64,000 bases of DNA, taken from assembly GCA_026168455.1 (NCBI GenBank), contig CM047430.1, positions 74,267,006 to 74,331,005 of the forward strand, in the 5' to 3' direction. Below, in pieces: positions 17,386 through 36,964 of this stretch. Both the position numbers and the translations under genes were made by a program. The notes beneath the pieces were generated by a model. That model was not told the DNA's origin, searched no databases, and saw only the letters and a list, made by a program, of their open reading frames with translations. Position 1 is the stretch's first letter, and every line of letters begins with the position of its first letter. Source of the DNA: Theocolax elegans (Eukaryota; Arthropoda; Insecta; Hymenoptera; Cerocephalidae).

Positions 17386-17759
17386 GAAGGATAAGTGACC
17401 GTGTTGCTGGACCATTTACCGCAACGAGGAGGAAAGGGTGCAACTAAGCACTCCTTAGGAAGGATAAGTGACAGTGTTGCTGGACCATTTACCGCAACGA
17501 GGAGGAAAGGGTGCAATCAAGCACTCCTTAGGAAGGATAAGTGACAGTGTTGCTGGACCATTTACCGCAACGAGGAGGAAAGGGTGCAATCAAGCACTCC
17601 TTAGGAAGGATAAGTGACAGTGTTGCTGGATCATTTACCGCAACGAGGAGGAAAGGGTGCAATCAAGCACTCCTTAGGAAGGATAAGTGACAGTGTTGCT
17701 GGATCTTTTACCGCAACGAGGAGGAAAGGGTGCAATCAAGCACTCCTTAGGAAGGATAG
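17386..17759. repeat. 73-bp minisatellite, five units
   Basis: Unit type AAGGATAAGTGACAGTGTTG... repeats head to tail five times with few substitutions. It is the same family as 26503-27315 and 28284-29097 in element B and marks this stretch as B 3' non-coding region. Confidence 0.95.
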
Positions 17760-18179: not shown

Positions 18180-18730
18180 ACGCCTTTAATTATTTTAAAA
18201 GGCCGTGCTCTGGGAAATTCCACCAACCATAGTGGACAAAGAGTACGATAGGCCTTCAATAATCTAAAAGTAAAGCATTTGGTTCGGAGAGACCGATATT
18301 ATTATACATATACATATTACCAAACGTTAAAATTTTGTAACAAATAACTCGCGATACGGTCTAAAAATTCGCGCTCTGGCTGGTGGCTTTTTCCACCACC
18401 AGAGGGAGACGACTATCTCTCTACACTCGTTGGAGAGATCGTCGTCTGTTTTCTATATATATAGCCGCAGAACATCTTGCTGGCGTCGCATATCATCTTG
18501 CGACAGGCGTCTAAGGTAAGATCTCCAGTTCCTTACTGAGGAGTCCAAACTGGAGATCGAGGACGAAACGCCTTTAATTATTTTAAAAGGACGTGCTCTG
18601 GGAAATTCCACCAACCATAGTGGACAAAGAGTACGATAGGCCTTCAATAATCTAAAAGTAAAGCATTTGGTTCAGAGAGACCGATATTATTATACATATA
18701 CATATTACCGAACGTTAAAATTTTGTAACA
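18180..18730 (+). mobile_element. Retrozyme-like hammerhead element, 1.4-unit tandem copy
   Basis: 18180-18342 and 18568-18730 are direct repeats of 163 bp with only a few substitutions, giving a unit of 388 bp of which about 1.4 copies are present. The unit is strongly structured: CTCTGG-C-TGGTGG pairs with CCACCA-CCAGAG at 18374-18404. A 15-bp stem with one mismatch forms at 18408-18447 (AGACGACTATCTCTC against GAGAGATCGTCGTCT). CGTGCTCT pairs with AGAGTACG with one G-U pair. A complete hammerhead ribozyme lies at 18505-18573, straddling the unit junction. Tandem units with a self-cleaving motif and no ORF are the hallmark of retrozymes and hammerhead satellites, whose RNAs circulate as small circles. 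It lies between the B fragment and a possible host exon. Confidence 0.75.
18505..18573 (+). ncRNA. Hammerhead self-cleaving ribozyme, stem-III-open topology
   Basis: Read as RNA, stem III is AGGCGU (18505-18510) with ACGCCU (18568-18573), and the predicted cleavage follows C18511 in the GUC triplet. Stem I is UAAGG (18512-18516) with CCUUA (18531-18535). The conserved CUGANGA core is present as CUGAGGA (18536-18542). Stem II is GUCC (18543-18546) with GGAC (18561-18564), and the GAA core is 18565-18567 followed by A18568 paired to U18510. Every invariant core position of the family is kept. The two capping loops (18517-18530 and 18547-18560) carry an 11-nt perfect complementarity, GATCTCCAGTT versus AACTGGAGATC, which would allow a kissing interaction. 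Stems I and II are closed, so this is type III. Activity is inferred. Confidence 0.85.
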
Positions 18731-21476: not shown

Positions 21477-22894
21477 CGTCGTTCCCCGATAAGAAGGTGC
21501 TACCTCGGAATCCGGTTGTAAAAGGTCCTACCTCGGAGTCCGGTTATAAAAGGTGCTACCTCGGAGTCCGGTTATAAAAGGTGCTACCTCGGAGTCCGGT
21601 TATAAAAGGTGCTACCTTGGAGTCCGGTTATAAAAGGTGCTAACTCGGAGTCCGGTTATAAAAGGTGATAACTCAGGAGCGAAATTTCAGTCTATGATTT
21701 TAAGTTGGTACTACTGCAAGTGTAAGCTCAGCAATAAGATTGACAATTGTTTTTGGCAATTTTATAAAAGATTGTTTTTATTTATCTATTAGTTATTTAT
21801 TATTATTTAGTAGTACCTATGCGTATATCATCAAAAAATTTAAATAAACGTAATTCAGGTAAAGTTATTATTTAGTTTGAATATATTTTAAACTGTTTCT
21901 TTTTATATTTTAATCTCCAAAATAAGAAAATTACGTCGACATATATATGTACTAAACTTTGATAATATCATATATAGATTCAATAGATAATCATTGATAA
22001 ATTATAAAATTATAAATTATACTACTGCAAAAGTTAAAAAACTAATTATGATGAGTAGTAACTGCAGAAAATACATGGTAAATAATAATTAAGTATGTTT
22101 AACCCCCCTGCGTACGCGTAATATACAAATCACGTATATTTTGGACGAGATATCTCGGGATACTGCGCCAGGGGGTTAAATGATAAAAATATAAGCTAAA
22201 TGCGTAAATTTTAATAATTTCTCGCAAACTGTCATTTTTCGCAATTTTAATTTTAATTTGATAAATGTAATTTAACACTGATACCTCTTAAACTCTCAAC
22301 TATTCAATTTTGGCGGTTGTATTCGAATCATTTTGTACCTTATTCCATTTCTCTCCCTTGTTTAACTCTAGCGAAAAAATCTCACTCCGTAAAACAGAAC
22401 CTTCGGCAGTTGTGTCGAAATGTATTATAAAAATTGAGTTATTTAAAACCAACAATTGACTAAAGTGTATATTTCATCTATTTTGTTTTAATTATAATTA
22501 TTATAAACATTATGTTACGGTATTAAGTTTTACGATATATTGTTAAATTCCGCATTAAAAATAAGAGTACAACGTTAAATAATAGATAAATAAAAATAAT
22601 CTTTTATAAAATTGCCAAAAAACAATTGTCAATATTATTGCTGAGCTAAACCGGCAGTAGTACCAACTTAAAATCATAGACGAAAAATTCGTTCCTGAGT
22701 TATCACCTTTTATAACCGGACTCCGAGTTAGCACCTTTTAAAACCGGACTCCGAGGTAGCACCTTTTATAACCGGACTCCGAGGTAGCACCTTTTATAAC
22801 CGGGCTCCGAAGTAGCACCTTTTATAACCGGATTCCGAGGTAGCACCTTTTATAATCGGATTCCGAGGTAGCACCTTCTTATCGGGGAACGACG
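21477..22894. mobile_element. Foldback element with inverted arrays of 28-bp subrepeats
   Basis: The outer ends are CGTCGTTCCCCGATAAG and its exact complement. ATAT is duplicated on both sides (21473-21476, 22895-22898), and the empty site is intact at about 37387 in the other LTR. Each arm of about 330 bp begins with about seven tandem 28-bp units (GGTGCTACCTCGGAGTCCGG...), inverted on the other side. The arms continue through ACAATTGTTTTTGGCAATTT and its complement. No transposase is present. The tandem-repeat terminal arms match the architecture of FB-type foldback transposons. Confidence 0.9.
22103..22175. mobile_element. 73-bp TTAA-flanked mini-palindrome (piggyBac-like MITE?)
   Basis: TTAA at 22099-22102 and 22176-22179 flanks a short segment starting CCCCCCTGCGTACGCG and ending ACTGCGCCAGGGGG, with inner CACGTATATT and GATATCTCG palindromes. 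TTAA duplication with CCC/GGG termini is the piggyBac superfamily signature. It is nested within the foldback element. Very short, so chance cannot be excluded. Confidence 0.45.
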
Positions 22895-26502: not shown

Positions 26503-27315
26503 GAAGGATAAGTGACCGTGTTGCTGGAGCATTTACCGCAACGAGGAGGAAAGGGTGCAACTAAGCACTCCTTAGGAAGGATAAGTGATGGTGTTGCTGG
26601 AGCATTTACCGCAACGAGGAGGAAAGGGTGCAACTAAGCACTCCTTAGGAAGGATAAGTGATGGTGTTGCTGGAGCATTTACCGCAACGAGGAGGAAAGG
26701 GTGCAACTAAGCACTCCTTAGGAAGGATAAGTGACGCCTGAGGTTGCCTGGACCATTTACCGCAACGAGGAGGAAAGGGTGCAATCAAGCACATCCTTAG
26801 GAAGGATAAGTGACGGTGTTGCTGGACCATTTACCGCAACGAGGAGGAAAGGGTGCAATCAGCACTCCTTAGGAAGGATAAGTGACGGTGTTGCTGGACC
26901 ATTTACCGCAACGAGGAGGAAGGGTGCAATCAAGCACTCCTTAGGAAGGATAAGTGACAGGTGTTGCTGGACCATTTACCGCAACGAGGAGGAAAGGGTG
27001 CAATCAAGCACTCCTTAGGAAGGATAAGTGACAGTGTTGCTGGATCATTTACCGCAACGAGGAGGAAAGGGTGCAATCAAGCACTCCTTAGGAAGGATAA
27101 GTGACAGTGTTGCTGGATCATTTACCGCAACGAGGAGGAAAGGGTGCATCAAGCACTCCTTAGGAAGGATAAGTGACAGTGTTGCTGGACCATTTACCGC
27201 AACGAGGAGGAAAGGGTGCAATCAAGCACTCCTTAGGAAGGATAAGTGACAGTGTTGCTGGACTTTACCGCAACGAGGAGGAAAGGGTGCAATCAAGCAC
27301 TCCTTAGGAAGGATA
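26503..27315. repeat. 73-bp minisatellite, about 11 units, indel-rich
   Basis: Head-to-tail units of 73 bp, each with two small hairpins (GTGC/GCAC and TTGC/GCAA). Unlike its sister array at 28284 it has many one- or few-base indels, such as an odd insertion at about 26730-26750 and missing bases at about 26860, 26921, 27150 and 27263. That is more like uncorrected sequence than natural divergence. Confidence 0.95.
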
Positions 27316-28283: not shown

Positions 28284-29097
28284 AGAAGGATAAGTGACCG
28301 TGTTGCTGGAGCATTTACCGCAACGAGGAGGAAAGGGTGCAACTAAGCACTCCTTAGGAAGGATAAGTGATGGTGTTGCTGGAGCATTTACCGCAACGAG
28401 GAGGAAAGGGTGCAACTAAGCACTCCTTAGGAAGGATAAGTGATGGTGTTGCTGGAGCATTTACCGCAACGAGGAGGAAAGGGTGCAACTAAGCACTCCT
28501 TAGGAAGGATAAGTGATGGTGTTGCTGGACCATTTACCGCAACGAGGAGGAAAGGGTGCAATCAAGCACTCCTTAGGAAGGATAAGTGACAGTGTTGCTG
28601 GACCATTTACCGCAACGAGGAGGAAAGGGTGCAATCAAGCACTCCTTAGGAAGGATAAGTGACGGTGTTGCTGGACCATTTACCGCAACGAGGAGGAAAG
28701 GGTGCAATCAAGCACTCCTTAGGAAGGATAAGTGACAGTGTTGCTGGACCATTTACCGCAACGAGGAGGAAAGGGTGCAATCAAGCACTCCTTAGGAAGG
28801 ATAAGTGACAGTGTTGCTGGATCATTTACCGCAACGAGGAGGAAAGGGTGCAATCAAGCACTCCTTAGGAAGGATAAGTGACAGTGTTGCTGGATCATTT
28901 ACCGCAACGAGGAGGAAAGGGTGCAATCAAGCACTCCTTAGGAAGGATAAGTGACAGTGTTGCTGGACCATTTACCGCAACGAGGAGGAAAGGGTGCAAT
29001 CAAGCACTCCTTAGGAAGGATAAGTGACAGTGTTGCTGGATCTTTTACCGCAACGAGGAGGAAAGGGTGCAATCAAGCACTCCTTAGGAAGGATAGG
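28284..29097. repeat. 73-bp minisatellite, 11 units, clean copy
   Basis: It shows eleven regular units. The first three share GGAGCATT and CAACTAAGC variants, the rest GGACCATT/GGATCATT and CAATCAAGC variants. The gradient of variants is the same order as in 26503-27315, so the two arrays are copies of each other. Confidence 0.95.
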
Positions 29098-29666: not shown

Positions 29667-30968
29667 CTACAAAGGTTCCATATATGAATATCTTAACCTA
29701 TTAACATGCACTATTTTCGTTTTATTATGAGCTAGCTCTATTTTTACATTTCCCTTGTTATTAACTATTTCTAAAATCCGATGTGGTCCAGTATATTGAT
29801 CGCCTAGTTTGTATTTCTTCCCTCCTTTTAATAACCAGACATTATCCCCTGTCTGAAATTCTTGATGATTGGCTTTCCTGTCGTAATAGAATTTTGACCT
29901 ATGTTTAGAAGCTATTAATTTTTCTCGCGCGATTCCCTGTATTTCGTTTAAACGTTGTCGTAAATTTATAATGTAATCATCATACGTTGGAACTCGTTCT
30001 CGTGGGTCTAAAGGTTCGTTTGATGGTAGTCGCGCTTTTCGTGCAAAAACAATTTCAAAAGGCGTGTAGAGATGACCCTCCTGTACCGACGTATTATATG
30101 AAAACGCGGCTAATTCGCATAACTCATCCCATGAGTCATTTCTTTCTATCATTGTTTTTAAATAATCTGCTAAGCTGCTATGAAAACGCTCAACGGAGTT
30201 GGACTGAGGGTGATAAGCCGTGGTTTTAACTTGTTTAATCTTAAAAATTTTCGCTACTTCTCTCATCAGACTACTTAAAAATGAGGTACCTTGGTCGGAG
30301 ATAATTAACAACGGGGCGCTAAAAATTGAAAAGTGTCGACGGACTAACGCTTCGGCGATCATTGCCGCGGTCGCGTCTGGTATGGGTATCGCCATACAGT
30401 ATTTTGAAAGGTTACATTGAATGGTTAATATATTATTGTTATTATTTCGAGATCTGGGAAATGGTCCCACAAGATCGACCGATATGGATTCCATAGCCGA
30501 GTACGGAGTATCTGTTATTATCATACGTTGTTTAGTTTTAACACGAACCAATTTTTTTAGTTGGCAAGTTAAACAATGTCTAATGTAGTTTTGTACATCT
30601 TTCTTAATGTCTGGCCAATAAAAACGTTGTTTTATACGTTTATAGGTTTTTGTTACCCCTTTATGTCCTGCACAAGCAGACTCGTGCATTTCGCGAATAA
30701 TATTTTCCCTATTACTCTCTTCCACACATTTTATGAATCCTAAACAAATAATTATTTTTACATTAATTTTTCGTAGGGTTATACTTATTTGTTTCAATAT
30801 TTCGTTCCATGAAACGTTTTCAATAAATTCGCTCTTTGCGATACTTATTGAACGTAATTTTTCTTTTAATATAATATTTTTCAAATTTAATAGATTCGTT
30901 TTTAGATTGTTAATAATTTCTGAAGTACTCAGTCGCTCTTCGTCACGTAACACCATAGCAAAATGCAT
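29667..30968 (-). CDS. Pol of element B, integrase portion (frame-separated)
   Basis: The integrase inserts the reverse-transcribed element into chromosomal DNA in the nucleus. The 433 residues counted from the first Met show the zinc-binding HHCC domain (H95, H102, C132, C135) and the catalytic core with D165, D225 and E260, an exact D-35-E spacing. They end with a C-terminal GPH-type module near residue 393 (YTGPHRILE), comparable to the GPY/F domain of Ty3 integrases. All catalytic residues are present. The frame is open upstream of this Met to at least 31010 and overlaps the end of the RT frame. The Met is therefore unlikely to be a true start: this is the C-terminal part of Pol separated by a one-base frame change near 31010-31020. 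No env follows. Confidence 0.95.
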   Translation of the reverse strand: MHFAMVLRDEERLSTSEIINNLKTNLLNLKNIILKEKLRSISIAKSEFIENVSWNEILKQISITLRKINVKIIICLGFIKCVEESNRENIIREMHESACAGHKGVTKTYKRIKQRFYWPDIKKDVQNYIRHCLTCQLKKLVRVKTKQRMIITDTPYSAMESISVDLVGPFPRSRNNNNNILTIQCNLSKYCMAIPIPDATAAMIAEALVRRHFSIFSAPLLIISDQGTSFLSSLMREVAKIFKIKQVKTTAYHPQSNSVERFHSSLADYLKTMIERNDSWDELCELAAFSYNTSVQEGHLYTPFEIVFARKARLPSNEPLDPRERVPTYDDYIINLRQRLNEIQGIAREKLIASKHRSKFYYDRKANHQEFQTGDNVWLLKGGKKYKLGDQYTGPHRILEIVNNKGNVKIELAHNKTKIVHVNRLRYSYMEPL

Positions 30969-31006
30969 TTTTCCGTTTTTGTTATTGATTCTTATTTCTC
31001 CTGGAT

Positions 31007-33943
31007 TTAAATTGGAAAAATGAGGTAATATAATTTTGAAGCCAAATTTCTGGATCCTTCATCTAAAGGCATTCCAGTCGTAGTTATGAAATAAACGTAA
31101 TTATCTTTCCTCATAAAGAGTTGTTCTTTAACTTCAATGAATTTCTTTTCATCATTTGGTTCTTCGTAAACATCCTTCTCTTCCCAGGACTCGTCAAACT
31201 TGTTGTTAAAATTATCTATCTCCATGGGTTGTAATCTTTTGTCTGAGTTGACTATCGTTTCAATTTCCTCGGGGGCTTCTTGTATTATGGGAAGGTTTTT
31301 GACTGGTTCTTTTGATATATTTGACTTGTTGGGTCGTTTAGCTCTCTTTTCGTTGTAGTTTGGCCGTGTTATTTTTCCTGCACGACTGCGTGTTTCCATA
31401 GAATGATTTTTAATAACATAAACGGGTTCTTCTATTGGATTTCTTGATAACGCGTCAGCATTAACGTTACTTTTACCGGCTTTGTATACAATGTCAAAGT
31501 CGTATGCATTCAGTTTTATTCTCCATCTACTAACTCTGGATGTCGGATCTACTGAGTTTTTGAACCAAACAAGTGGTTTATGATCTGTTATAATGAGGAA
31601 ACGACGGCCTCTTAGATAGCAATCGAACTGAGTAACGGCATACAGTATGGCTAATGCTTCCCTTGAATAAGTATCATATTTTTGCTCGGCTTTGTTTAAT
31701 ACCCGCGAAACATACGCAACTGGTAGGTCGGTTCCCACCTCTCCTTGTGATAATATTGCTCCTATTGCTGTACCGCTAGCGTCACAAGTCACTATAAATG
31801 GTTTATTAAAATCTGCAATTTGTAGTATTGGTTGTTTACACAATTTTTCTCTTAAATCATCGAATGCCTTTTGAACCTCGCTGGACCATAGGAAAGGTGC
31901 GTCTTTCTTTAATAAATTACTTAATGGTCTAGCTATACCCGAAAAATTCGCAATGAATCGTCTATAATAACCTGCTAATCCTAAAAATTGACGTATGTTT
32001 TTCACTGTTTTTGGAATTGGAAATTTTTTTACTGCTTCTAATTTTTTTGGATCCGGCAAAACACCTTCTGGTGATAGTACGTGTCCCAGATACACTACTT
32101 CTCTCTTCAAAAATTCACATTTGTCTGGCTGTAATTTCAGATTTGCGGCGCGTACTCTTTGCAAAAATTTTTCAAACTTTTGGTTATGCTCCTGAATATT
32201 TTTAGCGTATATAACTGCGTCGTCAAGGAATAAAAATATTTCTTTGCCTTGCATGCCTTCGAAAACACGATCAATCATTCTTTGAAAAGTGGCTGGAGAA
32301 TTGCATAATCCCATAGGCATTGTTTTAAATTGAAATAAACCGAATGAAGATGCGAAAGCTGTTTTGTGTCGATCTTCTTGTGCTAATGGAACTTGTAAAA
32401 ATCCTTGACATAAATCCAAGACGGTGAATACACGATTTTCTGGTCCGATTTGATCGATAATATCTAGTATATTAGGTAATGGGTATCGATCTTTTACGGT
32501 TTTATCGTTTAATTGTCGAAAATCGACAACTAGTCGGTATCGTTTATTACCCTGACTATCAGGCTTTTTTGTTACTAGAAAAACAGGTGATGTATAATTG
32601 GAACTTGATGGTTCAATTATGTCTCCTTCAATCATTTCTTTTAATTGTTTATCAAGTTCGCTTTTGAGAGCATGAGGAAATCTATATGGCTTAGCTGTGA
32701 TTGGTATGTCGTCGACAGTCGGTATCTTATGTTCTATAGCATTTGTCACGCCTAATTTTTCTCCTTTTAGACAGAAACAATCCGAATATTTATCAATTAA
32801 ATTTTCTATAGATTGTCTTTGTTCCTCGTCCATTTTATCAAAATGCAATGCTTCTTTTAATCGTTCATTACGATTAAGTGTACTCGTATCCTCCGTTATG
32901 TTAAGTATCCTCGCTTCAGATCGATTGTCAGAAATGTCGTGTATGTCGACCTCTTCACTTTCATAACTATAAAAATTATTAATATAAGGTTTATTTGAAT
33001 AAACCAAATAACTGTTATTCATTTCGTTTTCGTGTATGGCTTCGACAAATTCGCTTCGTAAATTTTCGTTTATAACTCGTTCATTCAATAAAAAATCGCT
33101 AGGGTCCTCATCCTGTTCATTTTCTTCCTGTATGTTTATTAAATTCTCGTTATTTATCTCATTTTCAGTTTCTTCAGTTCCTTGTTTATTTATCCATAAT
33201 ATTTCGGTTCTCGGGATAGTATCTAACTCTTCCCCCGACATAACCAATTCTTTGTTATTCAATTTACTAACATTTTTATCACGAGGTCCGCATTTATCGC
33301 CCTCCTCGATTTCGTAATCCATTCTTACTGGACAATTCATTATTTTATCAACAAAATCTTGCTTATTTTCACGAGGTCCGCACTTATCGCCCTCCTCGAT
33401 TTCGTAATCCATTCGTACTGGACAATTCATTTTTTTATCAACAAAATCTTCCTTATTTTCACGAGGTCCGCATTTATCGCCCTCCTCGATTTCATAATCC
33501 ATTTGTACTCGACAATTCATCTTTTTATCAACAAAATTTTCCTTATTTTCACGAGGTCCGCATTTATCGCCCTCCTCGATTTCATAATCCATTTGTACTC
33601 GACAATTCATCTTTTTATCAACAAAATTTTCCTTATTTTCACGAGGTCCGCATTTATCGCCCTCCTCGATTTCATAAACCATTTGTACTCGACAATTATT
33701 AACTGTCTTATTCAATAAATTTTCTTCATTTTTTATTTCATTTTCAATATCATACTTCAGGTCAACTTCGTTTTCATAATTAGTACAGGATGGACTCCCA
33801 CCCATCCTATCGAACAATGGTGCTTCAATAATACCATAATTTTCAGTAATTTCATCAAATTTCTCTTTAATACGTGGCTCAGCCACATCACATACCCGTG
33901 GCTGCGCTTTTCCATTATTTATTTGTAATCGTTCTTTCTTCAT
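31007..33943 (-). CDS. Pol of element B, reverse transcriptase-RNase H
   Basis: This 978-residue frame copies the element RNA into DNA. Residues 1-400 are an unusual acidic linker containing five tandem 30-residue repeats (83-221). The RT domain spans about 420-640, with catalytic D510 in TVLDL and D574/D575 in FLFLDDAVIYA. RNase H follows with D721 (TCDAS), E762 (SREALAI) and D787 (ITDHKP), and ends near 840 with NADALSR. These are all the expected catalytic residues for the Ty3 class. Its ATG overlaps the stop of the protease frame (TAATG at 33945-33941), and its own stop at 31007-31009 precedes the integrase frame, which lies in -1. Most gypsy-like elements have protease, RT and integrase in one frame, so both breaks are abnormal for this copy or are sequence errors. 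Confidence 0.95.
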   Translation of the reverse strand: MKKERLQINNGKAQPRVCDVAEPRIKEKFDEITENYGIIEAPLFDRMGGSPSCTNYENEVDLKYDIENEIKNEENLLNKTVNNCRVQMVYEIEEGDKCGPRENKENFVDKKMNCRVQMDYEIEEGDKCGPRENKENFVDKKMNCRVQMDYEIEEGDKCGPRENKEDFVDKKMNCPVRMDYEIEEGDKCGPRENKQDFVDKIMNCPVRMDYEIEEGDKCGPRDKNVSKLNNKELVMSGEELDTIPRTEILWINKQGTEETENEINNENLINIQEENEQDEDPSDFLLNERVINENLRSEFVEAIHENEMNNSYLVYSNKPYINNFYSYESEEVDIHDISDNRSEARILNITEDTSTLNRNERLKEALHFDKMDEEQRQSIENLIDKYSDCFCLKGEKLGVTNAIEHKIPTVDDIPITAKPYRFPHALKSELDKQLKEMIEGDIIEPSSSNYTSPVFLVTKKPDSQGNKRYRLVVDFRQLNDKTVKDRYPLPNILDIIDQIGPENRVFTVLDLCQGFLQVPLAQEDRHKTAFASSFGLFQFKTMPMGLCNSPATFQRMIDRVFEGMQGKEIFLFLDDAVIYAKNIQEHNQKFEKFLQRVRAANLKLQPDKCEFLKREVVYLGHVLSPEGVLPDPKKLEAVKKFPIPKTVKNIRQFLGLAGYYRRFIANFSGIARPLSNLLKKDAPFLWSSEVQKAFDDLREKLCKQPILQIADFNKPFIVTCDASGTAIGAILSQGEVGTDLPVAYVSRVLNKAEQKYDTYSREALAILYAVTQFDCYLRGRRFLIITDHKPLVWFKNSVDPTSRVSRWRIKLNAYDFDIVYKAGKSNVNADALSRNPIEEPVYVIKNHSMETRSRAGKITRPNYNEKRAKRPNKSNISKEPVKNLPIIQEAPEEIETIVNSDKRLQPMEIDNFNNKFDESWEEKDVYEEPNDEKKFIEVKEQLFMRKDNYVYFITTTGMPLDEGSRNLASKLYYLIFPI
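33281..33697 (-). repeat. 90-bp coding minisatellite in pol
   Basis: About 4.6 tandem units of 90 bp encode NCRVQMDYEIEEGDKCGPRE and the following ten residues (ENKENFVDKKM type). Units differ by a few substitutions (CRVQ/CPVR, NFVDKK/DFVDKI) and keep the frame. The repeat lies in the linker between protease and RT. No known domain is recognised. Confidence 0.95.
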
Positions 33944-34731
33944 TAATCCATAACAATTTTCACTTGCTTTACATGTATTTTCCTTAGATCCGACGCCTCG
34001 TCGATCTGATGTACTTGTATTTCGTCATCTTTATAATCGTCATATAACTCTTGTTCTTTTTCACTGTAATTGTATAGGTTTTTGTCGTTGCCATTTTGAT
34101 TTCTTTCATTTTTTTGTTCTTGTTCGTAGATTTCATACGATTCGTTTGTGTCAAATTTTATAAACGTTTCATCATTTTCGTGTAATTGAAAATCACCTGA
34201 CGTTTCTGAGTCACTATCGGTATAATTATAAAATCTTGAATTTTTCATGTTCGTATAACCATTGTTTTCCCTTGGTTTTGGCATATATCGTATTGATTTT
34301 CGGTCATAATTTTCGATATTCTCCATTATATATATCGATTCATCCGTTTGCATATTATTTGCATTTTCAAAGGGGAGGATTAATCCGTTAAATTCTAAAT
34401 ATTGTTCCAAATAATTGATTTTTGCATCGTTTCTACGGAAAAAATCGGTGCCTAAGATTCCGTCTTGTTGTATAGGAAACGAATCATGTACTAAATTGAG
34501 TTCCACGGGAGATCCTTCGAAATCTACTCTGATTTTACCACGAGTAGTTAATGAGTGGTCCGTTATGCCTTTTAACAATATAATATCATTTTCGTCAATT
34601 TTTACGCGAGAGTCTACCTCTGACTCTTTAATTAGACTTACCGATGCTCCTGTATTTAGCAAGAATTTTAACGGACGTCTTAACTGACCGGTATCGAAGA
34701 TTACGACCGGGGCTGAACTCTGTTGGCTTAA
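33943..34731 (-). CDS. Pol of element B, aspartic protease segment with mutated active site
   Basis: The frame has no ATG. It is open from within the gag stop region in -1 relative to gag, so gag-pro expression by frameshifting is likely, although no canonical slippery heptamer is visible at the gag stop. It contains a retropepsin-like fold: PLKFLLNTGASVSLIK (active-site loop), then the flap region and the ILGTDFF motif that normally follows, then an acidic tail. The active-site triad reads NTG instead of DTG (AAT codon at about 34656-34654), which removes the catalytic Asp expected in the family. The frame ends in TAA overlapping the ATG of the RT frame. This protease is probably inactive in this copy. 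Confidence 0.85.
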   Translation of the reverse strand, partial: LSQQSSAPVVIFDTGQLRRPLKFLLNTGASVSLIKESEVDSRVKIDENDIILLKGITDHSLTTRGKIRVDFEGSPVELNLVHDSFPIQQDGILGTDFFRRNDAKINYLEQYLEFNGLILPFENANNMQTDESIYIMENIENYDRKSIRYMPKPRENNGYTNMKNSRFYNYTDSDSETSGDFQLHENDETFIKFDTNESYEIYEQEQKNERNQNGNDKNLYNYSEKEQELYDDYKDDEIQVHQIDEASDLRKIHVKQVKIVMD

Positions 34732-34733
34732 AT

Positions 34734-36923
34734 TTATTTTCGCGGTGCGGAGGGGACGTTTGAGCGGGTTTCCGCGCTCGAAGTAGAGGGAATTTGATTC
34801 GTAGCCTCTCTCTCGACCCTCCTCGGAGAGAGAGTATCGGTGTTTCCCTGATTTTGATTTCCTTCTCTTATTTCTCTTTGTAACTTATAACAATCGCGCT
34901 TTATGTGACCGGGTTTTCCGCAATGAAAACAAGTAACTGGTGATTTTATATTATTATTCGATTCGTTATTAATATATCGTGATTCTTGGGAAGTTGGATT
35001 AACCGGCTCGCGCACACCGCGAGTCCCGGAATTATTTCCCCGATCTTCTTTGTTAAATTGTTGCGATGAATATTTATTATTATTATAACGAACAAAGGAA
35101 TCATTTTTATCTCTGTCTCTATTTGGTAAAAATTCCGTCTGATTTTGATACTCATTCCAACCACCAAATTGTAAATTTGGTCTATTATAATTACGACTGT
35201 TATCCGAGCGATTTTGTGGGCTATATGAACTGTTTATGGGATTGCGTCGGTTGTTATTATCGGAAAATCTTTCCGCAAAACTTCGTGCTAATTTGAAACA
35301 ATTTATGACTCCATGACCAGTCTTAGAACAATATTGACATACAATTGGAGAGTTATTAGAAATATAGTTTACTTTACGCGTTTCTCGAGTTGAACGAGAA
35401 CGAGCCTCTTCTCGGCTCGGCGTCTCCTCGTCCAAGACGCTAGAAGCGAACTCGCGCTCCACCTCGAGCGCTTGTTCACGAGCTTGTTTTATAGAACTTG
35501 GAGTCCCTAATCGCGCACGAATTTCCCAACGAAGCCCTTTTAAAAAGAATTTTAAACAATCTCGCCTTAGTTCAAGCATGAAATGATCTGCTATCGCAAC
35601 TCGTCCCTCTCTGTCGGCCGCTTTGACTATTTCATTTTTTATTTCTTGTAACCGATTAAAATAAGCAACGACTGTCTCATTGTTTTTCTGTTTTAATTTA
35701 GCAAGTTCTCCCGTCCACTCGTAATATGTTTTTATCGATCCGAAGGTGTTTTCGAAAAAATCGGATATCTCTTTGATAGAATTAAAATTTTCTCCGCGCG
35801 CACAAGTTAAAGCTTCCCCATATAAATGCATTCGAATAAGTTTTGTTAATTCTTTCTCGTACTCCGACGGTAAAATTTCTTTTGCTTCATTGCATCCGTC
35901 CAAAAATTGTGATAAATTTATGTTATGACCGTTAAACCGCGGTATTAAATCTAGAGCGTCCTTTAGCGATAAACCTCGAATTTGAGACGTCATTGTTTTA
36001 TTATTAATTTGTTTTTTAACTTCACTCCTATCTAGTTTTTTTGGTTTTGTTCCGGTGCTTGTTCTTAATTCGTCTAAATTAATTTTATTAAATAATTCGT
36101 CTTTAATCTTAGAAGAGTTTGCTTGTTCGGGTGATCTTTTAATTAATTGATTATCGAAGGGAATTGTAAAATCTGACGCGCCTTGAATTAGTTTTTCGTC
36201 GAGTACTTTCGCCGTGTCTGTCACTAGTGCCTTTGCTTCCTCAGTCTCTTTTTCGATCGGTGCGGAAAAAATATTTAACGCGCCTTTAATCTTATTTATG
36301 ATACCTTGAAAAGTTGTCCCTTTTTTTACACTTTCTTGTAAACTTTCTATGATTTTAGGTTCCTCGAGATAAGAATCTAACAACTCTTTTTTTACTTCAG
36401 TCGCGAGCCGTTTTCTTACCGAGCTTATAACGTTATCCGGTGTTAAAATCAATGGTTCATATGGACGATAAATTGGGGCTGGCGTACTAAAATTTACAGG
36501 ATTATTCGCGATAATTTCTTTTTGTTCCTCGTAATTCAAAACTGCGGGTTTTAAACTAAAATGTTTTACGCGCGTGGGAGTAATTATTGTGTCTTCTTGT
36601 TCGTCTTCACTAACTTCGGAAATAGAAAGATCAGTTGGAAAAAAAGGTTCTCTATATTCAAAATCGCGAGGTATTTTTATAGATAACGAAATATTTGCTG
36701 CACTTTTTTCTAGTCTATCCTTTAAATAATTTATTTCTTTTGTCAAATTTTGCACTGTTTCCCTAGGAGTTTTAGTTAAATCGAAAGTATCGAGAGTCTG
36801 AACTTTTTCTTTGTATAAATTTAATAACGTATCATTCATAGAAAATTCTAAACTCGTGTTTCTTTGTTTATTTACATAACAATCAGTATTTTTAGGCGAA
36901 CCTGACATTTTATATCTAAACAC
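34734..36923 (-). CDS. Gag polyprotein of element B
   Basis: This 729-residue structural protein packages the element RNA into virus-like particles in the cytoplasm. The N-terminal 300 residues are a long, partly acidic extension with helical K/E-rich stretches, unusual in length. A retrotransposon capsid domain lies at about 315-480 (LIPRFNGHNINLSQFLDGCN, then the YFNRLQEIKNEI and FFLKGLRWEIRARLG segments). Two CCHC zinc knuckles follow at 529-542 (CQYCSKTGHGVINC) and 665-678 (CFHCGKPGHIKRDC), separated by an Asn/Arg-rich linker that fits RNA binding. The start may be Met1 or Met6 (MSGSPKN). The frame is intact. It lies 60 bp inside the primer binding site, as expected. Confidence 0.95.
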   Translation of the reverse strand: MFRYKMSGSPKNTDCYVNKQRNTSLEFSMNDTLLNLYKEKVQTLDTFDLTKTPRETVQNLTKEINYLKDRLEKSAANISLSIKIPRDFEYREPFFPTDLSISEVSEDEQEDTIITPTRVKHFSLKPAVLNYEEQKEIIANNPVNFSTPAPIYRPYEPLILTPDNVISSVRKRLATEVKKELLDSYLEEPKIIESLQESVKKGTTFQGIINKIKGALNIFSAPIEKETEEAKALVTDTAKVLDEKLIQGASDFTIPFDNQLIKRSPEQANSSKIKDELFNKINLDELRTSTGTKPKKLDRSEVKKQINNKTMTSQIRGLSLKDALDLIPRFNGHNINLSQFLDGCNEAKEILPSEYEKELTKLIRMHLYGEALTCARGENFNSIKEISDFFENTFGSIKTYYEWTGELAKLKQKNNETVVAYFNRLQEIKNEIVKAADREGRVAIADHFMLELRRDCLKFFLKGLRWEIRARLGTPSSIKQAREQALEVEREFASSVLDEETPSREEARSRSTRETRKVNYISNNSPIVCQYCSKTGHGVINCFKLARSFAERFSDNNNRRNPINSSYSPQNRSDNSRNYNRPNLQFGGWNEYQNQTEFLPNRDRDKNDSFVRYNNNKYSSQQFNKEDRGNNSGTRGVREPVNPTSQESRYINNESNNNIKSPVTCFHCGKPGHIKRDCYKLQREIREGNQNQGNTDTLSPRRVEREATNQIPSTSSAETRSNVPSAPRK

Positions 36924-36964
36924 ATTATTCCTTTAATCTCTTTTTTTCTCTCAAAAATGTGAGT

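Follow-up and report, generated by a model that had tools for sequence, protein, structure and literature searches.

The question raised by this locus of Theocolax elegans is how a short piece of DNA carrying a hammerhead ribozyme and no long reading frame came to be inserted in the genome. The window, that is, the whole stretch of 64,000 nucleotides analysed, is situated on contig C6, roughly 0.5 Mb short of its end, and contains a copy of a family denoted here as RZ1 (G000:C6:74285185-74285572 in the genome search). We consider it quite probable that RZ1 is a non-autonomous retrozyme whose hammerhead is of type III, and that its insertion is carried out by a protein of Penelope-like element (PLE) origin, with hammerhead-made circles as template. 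The initial annotation had described a 388-bp unit in 1.4 tandem copies, most of which would fold into hairpins, and both statements hold: positions 18180-18342 recur at 18568-18730 (163 nt, 98% identity, spacing 388, 1.42 copies), and the predicted fold of the unit reaches -128.4 kcal/mol, compared with -90.2 (sd 4.9) for 100 shuffled sequences (z = -7.9). A search for ORFs of at least 120 aa found none overlapping the copy, indicating that RZ1 is non-coding, and comparison of its flanks revealed no recognisable target-site duplication. The copy is a single-arm, 5'-truncated insertion with one hammerhead and one cut site and, having only one hammerhead, it would be unable to release unit-length RNA on its own. 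Its components are collected in Table 1.

Table 1. Components of the RZ1 copy found in the window.
Feature	Position	Strand	Basis
RZ1 copy: one full 388-nt unit and 163 nt of the next	18180..18730	+	repeat comparison
RZ1 388-nt unit, numbered q1-q388	18180..18567	+	repeat and family matches
Partial second RZ1 unit, stopping at q163, which is the family's 'long' end	18568..18730	+	
Type III hammerhead ribozyme; predicted cut 18511/18512	18504..18574	+	RF00008 match; stems and core read directly
Hammerhead stem III, 5' strand (partner strand 18568-18573)	18505..18510	+	
Hammerhead C17	18511	+	read directly
Hammerhead stem I (18512-18516/18531-18535) with 14-nt loop 1; loop-loop segment 18520-18530	18512..18535	+	
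Hammerhead core CTGAGGA	18536..18542	+	read directly
Hammerhead stem II (18543-18546/18561-18564) with 14-nt loop 2, of which 18548-18558 matches 11 complementary nt of loop 1	18543..18564	+	
Hammerhead core GAA	18565..18567	+	read directly
Putative reverse-transcription start hairpin TTTGGT..ACCAAA (about q99-q145); loop holds the 'short' family end (about q128-q133)	18278..18324	+	
'Tail' of about 33 nt separating short and long ends	18310..18342, again at 18698-18730	+	compared with PMC11167929 and PMC3846280

The rest of the window is rich in repeats. A 73-bp minisatellite unit forms three separate arrays (17386-17758, 26503-27315 and 28285-29095), the first of which stops about 420 bp upstream of the retrozyme, and a 28-bp repeat array at 21489-21679 reappears as its reverse complement at 22697-22882, about 1 kb away. 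The ORFs of an LTR retrotransposon, with zinc knuckle, reverse transcriptase, RNase H and integrase domains, occupy 29667-36932 on the minus strand and include a 90-bp tandem repeat (33279-33697) within the coding region, while a large array of a satellite of approximately 102 bp, with 92-bp variants and higher-order blocks, extends from 40651 to 64000.

The hammerhead was found to be a complete type III motif with every core residue, as had been claimed initially: it presents the core CUGANGA and GAA, a predicted cut site after GUC and three stems, of which stem III is open. The covariance-model check proposed in the initial annotation came out divided, because the RF00008 model did match the type III motif (E = 1.5e-5, in 1,501 bases searched), but the score of 35.5 bits lies under the Rfam gathering score of 48.5 and formally fails the score threshold named there. 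This also explains why a plain Rfam scan of the window, in which 48.5 is reached nowhere, lists nothing; the shortfall is likely due to both loops being 14 nt long. On the scale of the whole genome, 36.3 bits corresponds to an E-value of 9.2e-4. The announced 11-nt loop-loop complementarity was equally confirmed, with Watson-Crick pairs at 11 of 11 positions and none of 40,000 shuffled RZ1 loop pairs reaching that length. In the minimum-free-energy fold (-28.6 kcal/mol) this complementarity appears as a plain hairpin, which excludes stems I and II; the three hammerhead stems without the loop-loop helix amount to -13.5 kcal/mol, and the loop-loop duplex itself to -16.4. We hypothesise that the complementarity may behave as a two-state switch, either clamping the active hammerhead or re-pairing as a hairpin. 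The core is kept in 123 of the 127 full RZ1 units, and the sole common variant within the hammerhead (q370 A>G, present in 14 of 30 loci, the window included) preserves the pairing as G-U. However, no sign of selection was found in the conservation of the hammerhead, with 0.64 variants per position versus 0.70 in the rest of RZ1.

Further copies of the 388-bp unit, for which the initial annotation had suggested a search, turned out to be abundant. At least 258 matches were obtained in the 658-Mb genome, a lower bound given that 39 of 1,419 candidates were scored, and 30 loci besides the window were read (L009-L028 and L059-L068). In 24 of these the tandem arrays are divergent, that is, arranged head to head (23 were classified so by script and one, L013, by reading, since an overlapping match had led the script to score it as 'other'); the other six are single-arm loci (L014, L026, L027, L059, L064 and L065). 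A single insertion may hold about 20 units, as is the case in L011. The mean divergence of units within an arm, in loci with at least two full units per arm, ranges from 0.00 to 1.26% (8.18 in the exceptional L060), versus 1.71% between loci, and the six full units distributed over the two arms of L010 show zero differences. This low divergence within loci fits a circular template, although a homogeneous donor array would fit too. Among the single-arm loci, L014 comprises 13.5 units and has its 5' end at q331, no more than 2 nt away from the predicted cut site; a further 24 nt separate this end from the repeated target stretch. Separately, RZ1 pieces are spaced by roughly 17.5 and 18.4 kb in L026 (G000:C790) and in G000:C7:34618823-34656280, apparently within larger repeats.

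Further evidence came from the limits of the insertions. The outer ends of RZ1 cluster at two sites about 33 nt apart, a short one near q130 (q124-q140) and a long one near q163 (q161-q171), and wherever both ends could be classified (20 loci) they were short/long in 19 cases, short/short in one (L023) and long/long in none; an end belonging to neither class was observed in 4 of the 24 divergent loci (L022, L024, L060 and L067). Stretches of 11-18 nt common to both ends of the insertion were found in 18 of 20 cases (19 RZ1 loci plus the window), the exceptions being the window and L022. When 21 of the 24 divergent loci were considered (L022, L060 and L067 were left out), duplications of at least 11 bp appeared in 20 of 21 own flank pairs versus 1 of 420 swapped pairs, and the target-site duplications measured 9-18 bp over the 21 loci. 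These dispersed copies with target-site duplications bear out the initial proposal of a retrozyme, understood as a small non-autonomous retroelement with a hammerhead. Support for the full 'retrozyme/viroid-like' interpretation is partial: viroids and satellite RNAs are replicons without a chromosomal DNA stage, in contrast to the hundreds of chromosomal copies of RZ1, and the viroid-like character and an active circular RNA are putative.

The 26 inner junctions, at which the two arms meet, are scattered over q1-q374 with no pile-up at the cut site, and mostly display 0-7-nt overlaps or filler of up to 36 nt, the larger overlap or filler values corresponding to L009, L013, L060 and L068. In 8 of the 26 the arms stop within 30 nt of one another's position, compared to 4 expected (P = 0.04), an excess suggesting that fold-back or self-priming may underlie a minority of them. 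Both arms hold full units in 12 loci, in six of which the partner arm was the nearest or tied; in L012 and L018 it ranked 14th and 18th of 41. The sequences suggest, in part, that both arms were copied from one RNA. The longer arm lies at the short end in 13 of 19 loci (P = 0.17), and a rule to this effect was dropped. From fold-backs in the assembly one would not expect duplications, fixed ends that are unequal and inner junctions that differ.

A comparable layout was observed among the PLEs of the same genome. With an E-value limit of 0.001, and 150 candidates scored out of 1,713, at least 98 GIY-YIG matches were obtained. In one PLE ORF, of 585 aa, GIY-YIG scores over the Pfam cut-off and RVT_1 under it. 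Among the matches listed, the 18 neighbour pairs within 8 kb were divergent in 13 instances, tandem in five and convergent in none. In the divergent PLE insertion L037/L038 on C4, which is flanked by a 14-bp duplication, one end is short and the other about 44-47 nt longer, somewhat more than the 30-40 bp published for the PLE tail (PMC11167929). Hairpins are predicted at the ends of RZ1 and RZ2 (a second family, described below), with an AT-rich loop in RZ1; for PLE family A, less clearly for families B and C, the predicted folds place the short end inside a hairpin loop and the long end past the 3' strand of that hairpin, as modelled for RZ1 and RZ2. None of 30 GIY-YIG loci resembles RZ1 or RZ2 in sequence, the best matches being of 13-38 nt with E-values of 0.058 or worse, and for this reason no partner is named. 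Rfam gave no hammerhead match at E up to 0.5 in the PLE loci L038, L044, L046 and L048. By eye, the PLE copies L044, L048 and L051 contain a motif, CTGATGAGG..CGAAACGTC, resembling a minimal type I hammerhead, which Rfam left unscored in L044 and L048.

The second family emerged from the genome search with RF00008, in which 68 of 79,098 candidates were scored. At least 14 matches between 36 and 43 bits were obtained; RZ1 was absent from them, its 35.5 bits falling just under the E limit. All 10 loci read from these matches (L069-L078; best match G000:C360:54986-55059) belong to a single family, RZ2, with a 513-nt unit in L069, hammerhead scores of up to 42.9 bits and at least 210 matches in the genome, including tandem arrays on small contigs. 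RZ1 and RZ2 have nothing in common longer than 11 nt. RZ2 also ends at two sites, near q234 and q270, one of each in 4 of 4 clean insertions (L070, L074, L075 and L076), with duplications of 11-13 nt. The remaining loci were left out of this tally: L069 and L078 are cut by the stretch, L072 and L073 share the site of L074, L077 that of L076, and L071 is off-pattern, with ends at q231/q233 and a right flank identical to that of L070. For both families combined, the ends are mixed in 23 of 24 insertions (P = 1.5e-6 under the assumption of independent, even ends), or in 23 of 25 with L071 entered as short/short. Pairing over 11-12 nt between loops of 13-14 nt recurs in two unrelated units; one of 40,000 shuffled RZ2 loop pairs reached 12. 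Across 19 parsed RZ2 motifs, in which overlapping loci were counted twice, 12 Watson-Crick pairs were found in nine and a run of only six in five, the others having 10-12 with or without wobbles, and this unevenness led us to make no claim of covariation. The head-to-head arrays, the two fixed PLE-like ends and the second type III family all lie outside the window, unlike the material on which the initial annotation was based.

Since RZ1 and RZ2 bear PLE-type scars and the RZ1 copy lacks coding capacity, it was concluded that a PLE protein very probably inserts both. In the mechanism envisaged, a genomic RZ1 array would be transcribed and its hammerheads would cut the transcript into 388-nt units, which would then be ligated into circles. 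A PLE protein, with its reverse transcriptase and GIY-YIG endonuclease, would bind the hairpin at about q99-q145 and cut both target strands some 11-18 bp apart. The 3' ends of the two cut strands would then prime reverse transcription, one of them near q163 and that of the opposite strand near q130. Each of the cDNAs would circle the template repeatedly, generating tandem units, until the two cDNA ends met at a variable place and were joined via microhomology or short filler; the outcome would be two head-to-head tandem arrays enclosed by a target-site duplication. A more specific formulation, which we advance tentatively, is that two unrelated type III retrozymes reveal a PLE protein performing two-ended rolling-circle reverse transcription of circular RNA from both cut target strands, with one start per site, the loop-loop complementarity being a switch that clamps the active hammerhead or, as a plain hairpin, protects the finished circle from recutting.

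That the template is a circle generated by the hammerhead is likely, and the reading that competes with this step deserves a substantial share of the probability, if less than half of it: PLE-type insertion could start from long uncut multimeric transcripts, with the hammerhead being a passenger or acting at another step and no circle being needed. In fact, insertion by the PLE protein PAc in vitro was reported to be independent of its hammerhead (PMC11167929), a homogeneous donor array would likewise give homogeneous daughters, and the nested 11-bp hairpin may, according to the predicted fold, hide the ribozyme. The intact core in nearly all full units and the identity of the units on the two arms of L010 argue, weakly, against multimeric templates, and the lack of a pile-up of junctions at the cut site suits circle and multimer alike.

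Two other explanations would dispense with the PLE protein altogether. Mobilisation by a LINE, through target-primed reverse transcription on one strand with inversions produced by twin priming, is compatible with duplications of 9-18 bp. However, twin priming is known to leave only one unit 3' end at the outer ends of an insertion, whereas in RZ1 both outer ends are unit 3' ends, at two positions and one of each; this, together with the fact that the PLEs of the genome display the RZ1 layout, makes a LINE very improbable. Even less credit can be given to an ordinary satellite DNA spread by exchange or as circular DNA and bearing a hammerhead-like sequence by chance. Although some RZ1 copies do lie inside larger repeats (C790 and C7:34.6 Mb) and arrays can grow after insertion, the swapped-flank control of the duplications already disfavours it, as do the dispersed insertions with two fixed ends, the E-value of the hammerhead, and the recurrence in the unrelated RZ2 of a type III motif with 11-12-nt loop-loop complementarity.

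Insertion of RZ1 by a PLE protein agrees well with what has been published on these elements. Frangieh et al. (2024, PMC11167929) reported that PAc cuts and extends both strands and uses two internal start sites, whose spacing corresponds to the 30-40-bp tail, the start site being no different between strands in vitro, and Arkhipova and co-workers (2013, PMC3846280) described rotifer PLEs in which most copies are head to head, one of the inverted copies bears a 31-bp tail and the duplications measure 8-10 bp. RZ1 shares the head-to-head copies, the duplications, two putative internal starts and the one-sided tail (about 33 nt, at one end in 19 of 20 loci). In contrast, PLEs code for a GIY-YIG endonuclease and a reverse transcriptase of their own, and their hammerheads are minimal ones of type I (PMC7761336). 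The metazoan non-LTR retrozymes, for which PLEs were proposed as strong mobilisation candidates (PMC7229834), resemble RZ1 in being short, non-coding, dispersed tandem units (150-450 bp there) with GC below 50% and duplications longer than 4 bp. They differ in bearing type I hammerheads, compared to type III with 11-12-nt loop-loop complementarity in RZ1 and RZ2, and head-to-head arrays are undescribed for them in PMC7229834, where the word 'inverted' occurs 0 times. According to the same source, plant LTR retrozymes do have type III hammerheads, although with LTRs, PBS, PPT, circles of 600-800 nt and duplications of 4 bp, unlike the longer ones of RZ1.

Type III hammerheads with base-paired loop-loop pseudoknots have precedents in insects. 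They were reported in termite and toad HDV-like RNAs, in termite and dipteran genomes and in Drosophila pseudoobscura, while hymenopterans, hemipterans and a cockroach were reported in that study to yield none of this atypical architecture (PMC7936874). Those motifs, isolated in termite genomes, possess a long helix I with an extra hairpin and a short GCCR/YGGC pseudoknot, whereas RZ1 and RZ2 are mobile tandem units with a stem I of 5-6 bp and most of both loops complementary over 11-12 nt. The pDo500 satellite of cave crickets is likewise an insect tandem repeat with a hammerhead, described as satellite DNA (PMC2837043). A scan of viral contigs with a degenerate hammerhead pattern returned 0 matches, and in a literature search, shallow for most of its matches, no description of animal type III retrozymes with PLE scars was recognised.

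The mover of animal retrozymes had previously been only a proposal, with PLEs as a strong candidate (PMC7229834); in the present genome, two retrozyme families unrelated in sequence carry insertion scars matching those of its PLEs. The distinction between plant retrozymes (type III) and animal ones (type I) is blurred by these mobile repeats of a non-plant-like genome, whose type III hammerheads pair over nearly the whole loops. RZ1 and RZ2 represent a large natural sample in which to study how PLEs insert, including the rule that each insertion pairs a short end with a long one, as opposed to the strand-indifferent starts observed in vitro (PMC11167929); they also offer small templates with which to ask whether a PLE reverse transcriptase accepts circular RNA.
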